Part shown: positions 34,841 through 58,904 of the stretch, piece after piece
Layout of the letters: every line of letters begins with the position of its first letter
How positions within the stretch are numbered: position 1 is the stretch's first letter
Source of the DNA: Paracoccaceae bacterium
Lineage (GTDB): Bacteria > Pseudomonadota > Alphaproteobacteria > Rhodobacterales > Rhodobacteraceae
Assembly: GCA_020832445.1 (NCBI GenBank)
Contig: JAFIEO010000039.1
Location: 1-64,000, forward strand
Length of the DNA stretch: 64,000 nucleotides
Direction: 5' to 3'
Program-made: the position numbers and the translations under genes
The notes under the pieces: model-generated
Database searches by the model: none
Seen by the model: only the letters and a program-made list of their open reading frames with translations
Told to the model about the DNA's origin: nothing

Positions 34841-36763
34841 TTACGCGGACGGTTCGGGTTCCATGCCGTCCCCGCTTTCGTCGCCACGTTTGCGGCCACG
34901 CGTCTTGGGGATGGCGGCAACCGACGGGGTGCCGCTGCCGGGCGTGTCTGCATCATCATCGCCGCGGTTCAAGGGTTCACCGCGCATGACGCGCGCGATT
35001 TCAGGCCCTGTCAGGGTCTCGTATTCCAGCAAGCCCTGCGCAAGGTTTTCCAGATCATCAGCATGTTCGGTCAGGATTTTCTTGGCTGTGTCATAACCTT
35101 CCTGAACCAGTTGCCGCACCTTGTCGTCGATCATCTTCTGGGTCATGCCGGAATGGTTGGACCCACCCCCGTAAGCGCCCAGATAGCTTTGCTGTTCATT
35201 GGCGTAATCGACATACCCCAATTCAGGGTCAAAGCCGAATTGCGTGACCATGGCGCGCGCAATCTTGGTGACCTGCTGAATGTCGCTTGCCGCACCGGAT
35301 GTGACCGCATCTTCACCGAAGGTCAGTTCTTCGGCCACACGCCCACCCATCGCCATGGCGATCTTGGATTTGTATTTGCGATAGCTGACAGACAACTGGT
35401 CGCGTTCGGGCAGCGACAGCACCAGACCCAGCGCGCGACCGCGCGGGATGATGGTTGCCTTGTGGATGGGGTCGTGTTCGGGCACATGCAGGCCCACGAC
35501 CGCGTGACCGGCTTCGTGATAGGCGGTCAGTTTCTTCTCATCTTCGGACATGACCATGGACCGGCGTTCGGCCCCCATCATGACCTTGTCCTTGGCCGAC
35601 TCAAAGTCTTCCATGGTGACAAAACGACGGTTTGACCGCGCCGCCATCAATGCCGCTTCATTCACAAGGTTCGCCAGATCAGCACCCGAAAAGCCCGGTG
35701 TGCCGCGTGCGATGATGCGCAGATCCACATTCGGACCCAGCGGCACCTTGCGCGCATGCACACCCAAAATGCGTTCGCGTCCCTTGATGTCGGGGTTGGG
35801 CACCTGCACCTGACGGTCAAAACGGCCCGGACGCAGCAGCGCGGGGTCCAGCACGTCGGGGCGGTTGGTGGCCGCCACGATGATGATGCCCTCATTGGCT
35901 TCGAACCCGTCCATTTCGACCAGAAGCTGGTTCAATGTCTGTTCGCGTTCGTCATTGCCGCCGCCATAGCCCACGCCACGCGACCGGCCGACGGCGTCAA
36001 TCTCGTCGATAAAGACAATGCAGGGGGCGTTTTTCTTGGCTTGCTCGAACATGTCACGCACACGGCTGGCACCGACACCCACGAACATTTCCACAAAATC
36101 GGACCCCGAAATCGTGAAGAACGGAACGCCCGCTTCGCCTGCGATAGCGCGTGCAAGCAGCGTTTTACCCGTGCCGGGAGGGCCGACCAGAAGCGCGCCT
36201 TTGGGGATTTTGCCACCGAGGCGGCTGAACTTCTGGGGATTGCGCAGAAACTCGACAATCTCCTCCAGTTCGTCCTTGGCTTCATCAATGCCCGCAACAT
36301 CGTCAAACGTCACACGGCCGCTTTTTTCAGTCAACAATTTGGCCTTGGATTTGCCAAACCCCATTGCGCCGCCTTTGCCACCGCCCTGCATGCGGTTCAT
36401 GAAGTAGATCCAGACGCCGATCAGCAGCAGGAATGGCAGCCACAGCATAAGCGTGGACAGGAAACCGGATTGCTGTTGGGGCCGTGCCTCGATGGGGATG
36501 CCTGCGTCCAGCAGCCGCTCGGTCAGGCCTGTGTCATCTGGTCGCACGGTCGAATATTGCTGGCCGTCACTGCCCACGAACACAATGCGTTCGCCATCAA
36601 TGGTGACCCTGCTGACAGTGCCCGAATCGACCCGCTGGACGAAATCAGAATAATTCACGCTGCGCGCTGATGATGTGCCCTGATTGTTGCTGAACATGTT
36701 GAAAAGCATGATCATCAACAAAAACAGCACGATCCAGAAAGCGAAATTCCGTGCGTTGCCCAC
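34841..36763 (-). CDS. ftsH: ATP-dependent zinc metalloprotease FtsH
   Basis: A 640-residue membrane protease that degrades unassembled or misfolded membrane proteins and regulators. It has membrane helices at about residues 7-25 and 103-121, Walker A GPPGTGKT near 195, the SRH region with arginine fingers near 300-315, and the zinc site HEAGHAVVG near 416. The C-terminus is rich in charged residues. It is the last gene of a leftward block after tilS, a common order in proteobacteria. Confidence 0.97.
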
Positions 36764-53000: not shown

Positions 53001-55202
<2,202 letters not shown>

Positions 55203-55203
55203 C

Positions 55204-57294
55204 ATGGCGGCGCGCCCTGAAATTCTGTTCCCGTTATTTGCAGGACTGGATGTGCTGGACGGTATTGGCCCGAAATCCGCGCGGAATTTCGCGGCCTTGC
55301 ATGTGGAAACGCCGCGCGATCTGATATTCCACCTGCCGCATGCGCTTGTGGACCGCTCGCGGCGCGCGTCCATTCAGGGCTTGGAATTTCCCGCCACCGC
55401 CACGGTTGAAGTGACGGTCCTGACCCATCAGCCGCCAACGGGGCGAGGCAGGCCGCATCGGGTGAATGTGCGCGATGATGCGCTGGAATTTCAGTTGGTG
55501 TTTTTCCATGCGCGCGGCGAATACCTGCAAAAGCTGTTGCCAACCGGGCAAAAGCGGCTGGTATCGGGCAAGTTGGAACTGTTCGATGGCATGGCCCAGA
55601 TGGTGCATCCGGATCATATTCTGCACCCGGATGATGCGACAACCCTGCCTGCGGCTGAACCGGTTTATGCCTTATGTGCCGGCGTCAGCCAAAAGCTGAT
55701 GATCAAGGCGGTTGCAGGCGCTTTGGCGCGCGCCCCACGTTTGATGGAATGGATTGATCCCGCACTGATGGCCCGCGAAGGCTGGCCGGATTGGCACAGT
55801 GCAATTCTGGCAGCGCATGCGCCCGACACTGTGGCTGATGTGCTGCCGGGCGCACCGGCGCGGGCACGTCTGGCCTATGACGAATTTTTTGCCCATCAGA
55901 TGACACTGGCGCTGGCGCGTCTGCGTCAGCGGCGCAAGCCCGGCCGCGCCAGCAATGGCGATGGCCGGTTGCGCGAAAGCGTTTTGTCCGCGCTGGATTA
56001 TAGCCCCACCAATGCGCAGCGTCGCGCCGTGGCCGAGATCGCGGCAGATATGGCCGCTCCCGCGCGCATGAACCGCCTGTTGCAGGGCGATGTTGGTGCG
56101 GGCAAGACGCTTGTGGCCCTGATGGCGCTGCTGATCGCGGTCGAGGCGGGCGGGCAGGGCGTGATGATGGCGCCCACCGAAATTCTGGCACGCCAGCATC
56201 TGGAAAGCCTGCGGCCCCTTGCGGATATGGCGGGGGTGCATCTTGCGCTGCTGACAGGGCGCGACAAGGCGTCTGATCGCGCGCAAAAGCTGGCTGCGCT
56301 GGCCGATGGCCGCATCCAGATTCTGGTTGGCACGCATGCGGTGTTTCAAAAAGGGGTCGAATTCGCGGATCTGCGCCTTGCCGTCGTTGATGAACAGCAC
56401 CGCTTCGGCGTGGCCCAGCGTGCGGCGCTTGCGGCCAAAGGTGTGGGTGCGGATGTGCTGGTCATGACGGCCACACCGATTCCACGTTCGCTGGCGTTGG
56501 CGCAATATGGCGATATGGATGTGTCTGTGCTGGATGAAAAGCCGCCCGGGCGCAAACCTGTCCAGACCGCGCTGGTGTCGACGGCGCGCATGGATGAAGT
56601 GGTGGCACATCTGCGGCAGGCCATAGATGCGGGGCGGCAGGCCTATTGGGTTTGCCCGCTGGTCGAGGAGTCAGAGCTGGTAAACCTGACTGCGGCGCAG
56701 TCGCGGTTCGAACATTTGCGTGCCGCATTGGGCGAGGGGGTGGTCGGGTTGGTCCATGGCCAGCTTCCCCCGAATGAAAAAGACACCGCAATGTCGGATT
56801 TCGTCGCGGGGCGCACCAAACTTCTTGTGGCCACGACCGTAATCGAGGTAGGGGTGAATGTGCCCAACGCCTCTATCATGGTGATAGAACGCGCCGAGAG
56901 CTTTGGACTGGCGCAGTTGCACCAGCTGCGCGGGCGTGTCGGGCGCGGGAGTGCGGCATCCACCTGTTTGCTGATGTATGAGGCCCCTTTGGGGGAAACA
57001 GCCGCGCGCCGCCTGAAATTGTTGCGCGATACCGAAGACGGATTTCGAATCGCCGAAGAGGACATGGCCATTCGCGGGGCCGGTGACCTGATTGGAACCG
57101 CGCAATCCGGGCTGCCACGGTTTCGCGTCGCAGATCTGGAACGGCAGGCCGCATTGATGGCCGTGGCCCAAACCGATGTGCGGAAATTGCTGTCGGATGA
57201 TCCCGATTTGCGCAGCCCGCGCGGGCTGGCCGCGCGAACAGCGCTTTGGCTGATGGAGCAGGACAAGGCGATAAAATACCTTTCTGTTGGTTGA
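55204..57294 (+). CDS. recG: ATP-dependent DNA helicase RecG
   Basis: A 696-residue helicase that remodels stalled forks and Holliday junctions. The N-terminal wedge (OB-fold) domain starts with LDGIGPKSARNFAALH. Walker A LLQGDVGAGKTLVALMAL is near residue 295, DEQHRFGVAQR is Walker B near 395, MTATPIPRSLAL is motif III, and QLRGRVGRGSAASTCLLMY is motif VI. The start ATG lies one base after the ligA stop. An SOS-box promoter begins right at its stop codon. Confidence 0.95.
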   Translation: MAARPEILFPLFAGLDVLDGIGPKSARNFAALHVETPRDLIFHLPHALVDRSRRASIQGLEFPATATVEVTVLTHQPPTGRGRPHRVNVRDDALEFQLVFFHARGEYLQKLLPTGQKRLVSGKLELFDGMAQMVHPDHILHPDDATTLPAAEPVYALCAGVSQKLMIKAVAGALARAPRLMEWIDPALMAREGWPDWHSAILAAHAPDTVADVLPGAPARARLAYDEFFAHQMTLALARLRQRRKPGRASNGDGRLRESVLSALDYSPTNAQRRAVAEIAADMAAPARMNRLLQGDVGAGKTLVALMALLIAVEAGGQGVMMAPTEILARQHLESLRPLADMAGVHLALLTGRDKASDRAQKLAALADGRIQILVGTHAVFQKGVEFADLRLAVVDEQHRFGVAQRAALAAKGVGADVLVMTATPIPRSLALAQYGDMDVSVLDEKPPGRKPVQTALVSTARMDEVVAHLRQAIDAGRQAYWVCPLVEESELVNLTAAQSRFEHLRAALGEGVVGLVHGQLPPNEKDTAMSDFVAGRTKLLVATTVIEVGVNVPNASIMVIERAESFGLAQLHQLRGRVGRGSAASTCLLMYEAPLGETAARRLKLLRDTEDGFRIAEEDMAIRGAGDLIGTAQSGLPRFRVADLERQAALMAVAQTDVRKLLSDDPDLRSPRGLAARTALWLMEQDKAIKYLSVG

Positions 57295-57340
57295 TGTTCT
57301 CATTTGTTCTTGACATGTTCCAGATAAAATGAGAACAAAT
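57295..57340 (+). promoter_or_regulatory. SOS (LexA) box and promoter of a small gene
   Basis: GTTCTTGACATGTTC at 57306-57320 is an exact GTTC-N7-GTTC, the alphaproteobacterial LexA consensus. It contains a perfect -35 TTGACA (57310-57315). TAAAAT at 57325-57330 is a possible -10 for a slightly upstream -35. The box sits inside an inverted repeat: TGTTCTCATTT (57295-57305) with AAATGAGAACA (57327-57337). Another GTTC is at 57296 and a GAAC at 57333, so several LexA contacts are possible. It lies 47 bases before the ORF at 57367. Confidence 0.7.
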
Positions 57341-57366
57341 CGTTAACAAACCGGATGGAGGGTGTC

Positions 57367-57480
57367 ATGTTCTACTTTCAGTCTAAATTTGATCGCCACG
57401 CCTTCTGGCAAGATCTGGCGGGCGGCGTTGCGCTGACGGTTCTGGTTCTTGCCACGCTTCATCTGCCACTTTTTGCCTGA
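57367..57480 (+). CDS. Candidate SOS-induced small membrane protein (37 aa)
   Basis: A 37-codon ORF with GGATGGAGG just before its ATG. The N-terminal part MFYFQSKFDRHAFWQDLAGG is polar and aromatic; residues 20-36 (VALTVLVLATLHLPLF) form one membrane helix that ends at the C-terminus. It has its own LexA-box promoter and terminator, so it is transcribed alone. SOS-induced single-helix proteins are known: SidA in Caulobacter blocks division, TisB in E. coli depolarises the membrane. Sharing that role is inference; I cannot say it is homologous. Confidence 0.65.
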   Translation: MFYFQSKFDRHAFWQDLAGGVALTVLVLATLHLPLFA

Positions 57481-57549
57481 ACTGCCTGCGGGTCAGTCCG
57501 CCACGCGTTTTGTGCACCGTCCCGTGCCCGCGCTTTCTGACCCCCACTT

Positions 57550-57587
57550 CCGCCGCCATGGTCGCCCCATGAGCGGCGGTTTTTTTT
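57550..57587 (+). terminator. Rho-independent terminator of the small SOS gene
   Basis: CCGCCGC and GCGGCGG form a 7-bp GC stem (with an inner CAT/ATG pairing) followed by eight T. It ends a transcript of about 250 bases starting near the LexA box. Confidence 0.8.
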
Positions 57588-57884
57588 ATGATGGGCAAAT
57601 ATTGCGTTTTCTTTGGGCAGTATCGGCCCCCTGATGCAGCAGGTTTCGTCGTTTGGATTGAATGCTGTGCGGTTTGAAAAGTTCAACCGCACTTTGACCT
57701 GAAAACCGGTCGGTTTTCAGGCAGTTGATCTTAATTGCAGACATATGGCCATTTACAGGCTTGACCGGTTTGCGATTATCGGCGCAAACTTGCCGGCAGT
57801 GAGGGCCAGTTTTGGTTTATGCACTACACCCCGGGACAACGCGGGGCAGACCGCCGCGAAGGCGGCGACAACAGAGAGGTAAAC
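57588..57884 (+). promoter_or_regulatory. Leader region of the aap operon with paired hairpins
   Basis: About 300 bases before aapJ. It holds an imperfect inverted repeat GCGGTTTGAA/TTCAACCGC at 57669-57690, then a perfect 10-bp one, CCTGAAAACC-GGTC-GGTTTTCAGG, at 57698-57721. Nearer the start are two GC hairpins, CCCC/GGGG around 57829 and CCGCC/GGCGG around 57851. GAGAGG is the ribosome site. The repeats could be operators or leader structures; I cannot match them to a known riboswitch. Confidence 0.5.
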
Positions 57885-58904
57885 ATGAAGAAATCCGTAT
57901 TTCTCGGCGCTTTTGCCGCGACATCACTCGTTGCAGGGCTAGCTCAGGCCCAGTCGACACTTGAAACAGTGCAAACCCGTGGGGAATTGAACTGCGGCGT
58001 CTCCACCGGCCTTGCAGGGTTTTCTGCCCCTGATGGGAACGGCGTTTGGCAAGGCTTTGACGTTGCGGTGTGCCGCGCCGTTGCAGCTGCCGTTCTGGAA
58101 GATCCCATGGCGGTCAACTTTGTTCCGACAACCGGGCAAACGCGCTTTTCGGCACTGGCATCTGGCGAAGTGGATGTTCTGGCGCGCAACACCACCTGGA
58201 CCTTCTCGCGTGATGTTGACCTGAACTTCACCTTTGTCGGGACCAACTACTATGATGGTCAGGGCTTCATGGTCACGCGTGATCTGGGTGTCGGCTCGGC
58301 GCTGGAACTGGACGGCGCGACTGTCTGTATCCAGACGGGCACCACGACCGAACTGAACCTTGCTGACTATTTCCGTGTCAACGGCATGTCCTACGAGCCG
58401 GTTCCAATTGAAACCAATGCCGAAGCACAGCAGCAATACCTTGCCGGTGCATGTGACGTGTACACCACTGATGTGTCCGGTCTGGCCGCAACGCGGGCAT
58501 CTTTTGCCAGCCCGTCCGACCATGTGATCTTGCCGGAAGTCATTTCCAAAGAGCCACTTGGGCCAGCAGTGCGTCACGGTGATGACCAGTGGGCAGATAT
58601 TGTTCAATGGACATTGTTTGCATTGATCGCGGCTGAAGAACTGGGTGTCACATCTGCCAATATCGACGAGATGAAGGCAGGGACCGACAACCCGGAGATC
58701 AACCGCATGCTTGGCAGCGAAGGTGATCTGGGCGCAATGTTCGGGCTGGACAGCGAATGGGCTGTTCGTGCAATCGCCGCCGGTGGCAACTATGGCGAAA
58801 TCTTCTCGGCCACGATTGGCGAGCAGACGCCGATTGGCCTTGCGCGTGGTCTGAACGCACAATGGACACAGGGCGGCCTGCTATACGCGCCACCGTTCCG
58901 TTAA
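57885..58904 (+). CDS. aapJ: General amino-acid ABC transporter, substrate-binding protein
   Basis: A 339-residue periplasmic binding protein of the AapJ/BztA type, which binds glutamate, glutamine, aspartate and other L-amino acids. Signal peptide residues 1-22 are cut after AQA. The mature part starts QSTLETVQTRGELNCGVSTGLAGFSAPD, with the family signature GFDVAVCRAVAAAVLEDP, and ends LLYAPPFR. ATG 57885 was chosen for the signal peptide and GAGAGG. Three transporter genes follow on the same strand. Confidence 0.93.
   Translation: MKKSVFLGAFAATSLVAGLAQAQSTLETVQTRGELNCGVSTGLAGFSAPDGNGVWQGFDVAVCRAVAAAVLEDPMAVNFVPTTGQTRFSALASGEVDVLARNTTWTFSRDVDLNFTFVGTNYYDGQGFMVTRDLGVGSALELDGATVCIQTGTTTELNLADYFRVNGMSYEPVPIETNAEAQQQYLAGACDVYTTDVSGLAATRASFASPSDHVILPEVISKEPLGPAVRHGDDQWADIVQWTLFALIAAEELGVTSANIDEMKAGTDNPEINRMLGSEGDLGAMFGLDSEWAVRAIAAGGNYGEIFSATIGEQTPIGLARGLNAQWTQGGLLYAPPFR

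Follow-up and report, generated by a model that had tools for sequence, protein, structure and literature searches.

Most sampled genera of the Rhodobacteraceae, a large family, carry a short gene after recG whose LexA-type promoter has been kept at the base-pair level and which, judging from comparative sequence analysis, very probably is a LexA-repressed protein-coding gene. The gene, its frame, its conservation, the type of its box, the overlap of the box with the -35 element and the terminator are all read from the DNA itself, and by analogy with the SidA protein of Caulobacter we put the chance that the short protein acts as a division brake at about even. The fuller proposal, in which the protein is the SOS division inhibitor of the Rhodobacteraceae and founds a separate family of one-helix blockers of the divisome, with no relationship to those already described and with its gene kept behind recG under a LexA-type promoter in most genera, is offered tentatively and at a little under an even chance. 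In the literature searched (listed titles and abstract starts) no description of the short ORF was found, and the gene appears to be undescribed there; it may already be annotated in databases, perhaps as a hypothetical protein. The gene has probably been overlooked because it is only about 31–47 codons long. In addition, recG does not occur in the main text of the Dinoroseobacter shibae LexA paper (PMC6473078).

The window, i.e., the whole 64,000-nucleotide stretch of DNA that was analysed, holds the gene immediately behind a frame that we read as recG (Table 1). An earlier note on this DNA had placed a 37-codon ORF with a single membrane helix just after recG and had given it an exact GTTC-N7-GTTC box with an overlapping TTGACA, an 11-bp inverted repeat, a GGAGG site and a T8 terminator of its own; every one of these elements was located, and the helix was recovered both by hydropathy analysis and by structure prediction. 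An alternative in-frame ATG at 57355 would yield a product of 41 aa. The terminator hairpin has a calculated dG of -22.3 kcal/mol, with a z of -4.96 relative to dinucleotide shuffles. A simple scan for terminators between 57000 and 58000 gave 2 matches versus 2.0 by chance, and it found no sigma-70 consensus promoter at the site. The next gene in the window after the short ORF is an amino-acid-ABC-transporter-like frame (57819-58904).

Table 1. Features of the recG-linked locus, with positions counted from the first letter of the window.
Feature	Position	Strand	Remarks
recG	55192..57294	+	700 codons as listed; GTG start; named by reading of the sequence
recG stop codon	57292-57294		
Operator-promoter region	57295..57337	.	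includes the 11-bp inverted repeat
Inverted-repeat arms, 11 bp	57295-57305 / 57327-57337		TGTTCTCATTT / AAATGAGAACA
Ancestral LexA-type half-site pair GTTC-N6-GTTC	57296..57309	+	GTTC 57296-57299 and GTTC 57306-57309
Exact GTTC-N7-GTTC box	57306..57320	+	GTTCTTGACATGTTC; lineage-specific; overlaps the -35 element
-35 element TTGACA	57310..57315	+	relatives keep TTKAC after the second GTTC
Conserved GAGAACAAA	57331..57339	+	16 bases past TTGAC; by inference, probably the -10 region and/or an extra LexA half-site
Ribosome-binding site GGAGGG	57357..57362	+	
37-codon ORF, single-helix membrane protein	57367..57480	+	ATG at 57367; stop codon 57478-57480 included
Intrinsic terminator	57550..57587	+	hairpin 57550-57579, T8 57580-57587

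Relatives of the 37-aa protein were found in 33 of 35 same-genus genomes (E 7e-5 or better), or 34 of 36 when the window's genome is included, and the two genomes without a match have completeness values of 82% and 71%. Twenty-four genomes of other families gave three weak matches only (E 0.066 or worse). In a family sample of 394 genomes, one per genus, a profile of the genus matched 224 (E 0.1), and a family profile built from 33 sequences matched 334 (E 0.001), including 297 of the 347 good-quality genomes. The earlier note had named a lack of conservation of frame or box in related genomes as grounds for refutation, and its proposal withstood that check, both being conserved. The counts for the 60 profile-negative family genomes rest on 20 of them, of which 16 had a full-length-type recG match. 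At 12 of these 16 recG loci a diverged short hydrophobic ORF and a box were seen by eye in the gap, the box reading GTTC-N7-GTTC in 9 and occurring in reverse orientation only in 3. The remaining four recG loci belong to G076, G113 and G115, all of which have lexA, and to G067, where no lexA match was seen. In L303 (G076), L301 (G113) and L300 (G115) the 330 bases past recG contain no box and no short ORF, and these three genomes may have lost or replaced the gene; since they are lexA-positive and lack both box and ORF after recG, the gene is dispensable in some lineages. Four genomes (G073, G088, G118 and G154) gave weak matches of approximately 85–94 bit to the C-terminal half of recG, in Mfd-like frames of more than 1,100 aa; recG may be absent or unassembled in these, and a lexA match was not found in G088 and G118. 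In a class sample, 7 of 385 genomes were matched by the family profile, 5 of them from the family and 2 false; the two matches outside the family (L125, a 240-aa frame, and L126, which is pilin-like) were rejected on reading the sequence, leaving no credible match outside the family among the 385 class genomes.

The ORF frame is under purifying selection. In the 20-codon core, pN/pS was 0.335 in the genus, with pN below pS in 462 of 465 pairs, and 0.370 among other genera, with pN below pS in all 325 pairs; the shifted frames gave 1.30 and 3.07. The start codons were picked by the best ribosome-binding site, and therefore the ribosome-binding site is not independent evidence.

The place of the gene was examined from the protein and from the promoter separately. 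The earlier note had located the ORF downstream of recG and had suggested a tblastn search across relatives; among 59 loci fetched with the short protein, tblastn with the window's RecG placed recG directly upstream, in the same direction, in 57. When the promoter pattern GTTCTTKAC-N16-GAGAACAA was searched alone, at least 119 stretches were found in the genome collection, mostly from named Rhodobacteraceae among the matches listed. Among the 119 listed, recG lay within 700 bp upstream in 111, the ORF was present in 109, and both were present in 108. Three of the 111 (L180, L245 and L263) end 164 bases or less from the pattern, too early for the ORF, and L267 has the ORF in a sequence that begins too near the pattern for recG to be visible; the remaining 7 of the 119 look like chance. 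A GTTC exactly 11 bases upstream of the pattern, giving the N7 box, was present in 108 of the 111 recG-linked stretches listed. Viral contigs gave 23 pattern matches with no recG, no N7 pair and no ORF in any of them, and these matches were therefore taken as chance. A mobile origin was likewise rejected, the 40-aa relative at L043 having no plasmid or phage match at E 0.01. The gaps between recG and the ORF, which hold the promoter and leader, measure 70–171 nt, and a terminator-like hairpin follows the ORF in 54 of 56 loci versus 1.4 expected from shuffles. As to the downstream neighbour, in 36 of the 64 named loci (L157-L236) that have an ORF there it belongs to a single cluster of homologues, NifU-like as we read the sequence and encoded on the opposite strand.

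The box taken alone was rejected as evidence. The window contains 2 GTTC-N7-GTTC boxes versus 1.30 expected, a number reached by 37 of 100 shuffles, and the genome as a whole contains 122 versus 150 for the reversed control pattern; the second box of the window (35930-35944) falls within an ftsH-like frame and was discarded. Since the box occurs at chance frequency, its conservation across relatives was taken as the test. The results showed an exact GTTC-N7-GTTC in all of the 56 recG-ORF gaps, versus 0.015 expected from mononucleotide shuffles; these gaps, which exclude L032 and L055 (no ORF under the filter) and L059 (no recG), include 31 from the window's genus, with the window itself and its near twin G020 among them, and the loci are related, not independent. 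The exact box sits at the -35 position in 54 of the 56, as GTTC-N7-GTTCTTKAC in 51 and with a variant -35 element in 3, whereas the window and G020 have N6 there and form an N7 pair instead through a third GTTC (57317-57320), 11 bases further on. The earlier note had taken the pair at 57306-57320 as the LexA operator. That pair stands as an exact box, but not as the ancestral operator, since it is specific to this lineage and the pair that aligns with those of relatives starts 10 bp upstream. The replacement of the N7 pair by way of the third GTTC is a single event, yet selection for an N7 box would be expected to have just this outcome. Three half-sites are present in 23 of 25 other-genus gaps, an arrangement that fits none of the 31 genus gaps. 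In other-genus promoters (e.g., L040, L049 and L157) conservation extends past the box and the -35 element into GAGAACAAAG.GGCAACA, and contacts of LexA and RNA polymerase would not fully explain this conserved leader.

The protein has a simple plan. The 33-sequence alignment gave the consensus MxxxxKxxxxRSxxTLxQDxAGAxALxVxLxxxLHLPxxx, in which the D that opens the helix does not vary in either alignment, the G three residues past it is invariant in one alignment and conserved at 90% or more in the other, and the HLP motif is common and not universal. The best 19-residue Kyte-Doolittle mean of the window protein is 1.98, and a hydrophobic 19-mer (mean of at least 1.68) was present in all 57 called sequences; AlphaFold2 predicted one helix at residues 10-36 of the window protein (mean pLDDT 84.6, pTM 0.42). 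In the 26 sequences from other genera the N-terminal 18 residues are amphipathic, with 25 sequences above their own shuffle mean and a mean net charge of +1.35, and 2 of 26 have a charge past residue 20; genus sequences show weaker amphipathicity (22 of 31) and no charge after the conserved D. This pattern suggests an N-in, C-out topology. Flank charge counted by hydrophobic window was mixed, the N-side being higher in 25, equal in 19 (the window protein among them) and lower in 13 of 57, and the topology is therefore not fixed by charge. Searches of Pfam and NCBIfam with the window protein and four relatives gave sub-cut-off matches only (best E 0.092), those of PHROGs and PADLOC with the window protein and two relatives gave no match at E 1, and a PDB profile search gave matches at E above 1 only.

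Based on these features, we propose that a free-standing unit after recG would express a tiny inner-membrane protein whose short N-terminal part, which in most genera is basic and amphipathic, leads into one transmembrane helix that ends the chain. We infer that LexA bound to the GTTC repeats covering the -35 element would keep the gene off, and that DNA damage would turn it on through RecA-driven cleavage of LexA. The helix would then most likely bind a late divisome membrane protein (FtsW, FtsI or FtsN), and division would be delayed during repair in the manner of Caulobacter SidA; the sequence itself holds no pointer to a divisome target.

By lineage, size and control the closest precedent is SidA, a 29-aa SOS-induced inner-membrane inhibitor that acts on FtsW (PMC4211646), compared here by description and not by sequence. 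Like the recG-linked protein as proposed here, it has an alphaproteobacterial host, LexA/SOS control and a very small inner-membrane product (PMC4211646) as well as the operator type GTTCN7GTTC, and a Caulobacter strain deleted for lexA forms filaments because of sidA (PMC12700426). In contrast to SidA, the recG-linked family is marked by its conserved position behind recG and by a D-x-x-G ... LP core. YneA, SosA and ChiZ of Gram-positive bacteria and mycobacteria are also DNA-damage-induced small integral membrane proteins that act on late division, and FtsW has been proposed as the target of several small SOS inhibitors, for some of them by low-confidence models; YneA and ChiZ each have a LysM domain (PMC13396833), whereas the recG-linked protein is nearly all helix. 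If the gene encodes the SOS brake of the family, the holding of division during repair in these bacteria could be tested by a single deletion, and the finding would extend the idea that lineages have separately invented tiny membrane inhibitors for one job. If it does not, a core SOS gene is left without explanation.

TisB of Escherichia coli is an SOS-regulated peptide with a single transmembrane segment, and a membrane-active peptide of this kind, which would depolarise or stress the membrane and slow growth in place of blocking a specific divisome target, agrees with the size, the single helix and the SOS-type switch of the recG-linked protein; the amphipathic N-terminus of 25 of the 26 other-genus sequences also points this way. 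The same is true of DinQ of Escherichia coli, an SOS-regulated toxic inner-membrane peptide with one transmembrane segment that depolarises the membrane and has an antisense RNA partner (PMC3567139). TisB and DinQ are, in contrast, parts of type I toxin-antitoxin systems with an antisense RNA, and none was seen at the recG-linked locus, where no Rfam match occurs in 57200-57900 and where the gaps are too small for a second upstream gene; a cis-antisense RNA may exist. Vertical, place-conserved spread with no plasmid or phage match would, in addition, be unlike a mobile toxin module, and we regard this reading as unlikely.

Many small one-helix proteins serve as subunits or regulators, which would favor an SOS-controlled regulator of another membrane machine, such as an FtsH-type protease, a transporter, respiratory complexes, or a DNA uptake or gene-transfer-agent system. 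LexA is reported to link DNA stress to gene-transfer-agent control in this group of bacteria (PMC6473078), and this tie speaks for such a role. No neighbour other than recG suggests a partner, however, the largest downstream cluster covering those 36 of 64 named loci and lying on the opposite strand. We regard this role, too, as unlikely.

LexA control of the short gene was assessed against the known targets. Both lexA and recA were found in all 30 genomes searched, the window's own included, and an exact box lay 220 bp or less upstream of the matched domain in 30 of 30 cases for recA and 29 of 30 for lexA; ssb had no exact box in any of 30 loci (20 genomes), and was therefore kept as a negative control. 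The earlier note's view of the ORF as a small SOS effector is supported in part: box, frame, place and terminator are conserved and the box is of the type found before recA and lexA and not before ssb. LexA control and the function are predicted, and the box cited is not the ancestral operator. An operator serving a non-LexA regulator that also reads GTTC repeats would account for three observations: the box runs as GTTC-N7-GTTC along the short gene versus GAAC-N7-GAAC along lexA and recA, its spacers differ from theirs, and conservation reaches beyond the box to GAGAACAAA and GCAACA. Against this, the half-sites and N7 spacing are identical to those before lexA and recA of the same genomes, the LexA motif published for Caulobacter reads GTTCN7GTTC (PMC12700426), and the boxes of the diverged loci L296, L306 and L307 have the lexA/recA orientation; we rate a different regulator as highly improbable. 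A spacer matrix built from lexA and recA scored the orthologous boxes at a mean of -3.4, versus -3.9 for the genome background and 3.3 for lexA/recA, and ranked the window's box fourth among the 100 listed; as LexA evidence it was set aside as uninformative and mildly against. That box and ORF are both due to chance, as the chance-level frequency of the box in window and genome might suggest, is refuted by the conservation of ORF, box, place and terminator together with codon-level selection and has a negligible probability. In 5 of the 30 lexA promoters (L063, L064, L066, L068 and L078), two overlapping GAAC-N7-GAAC boxes were observed, 11 bases apart and with a shared half-site.
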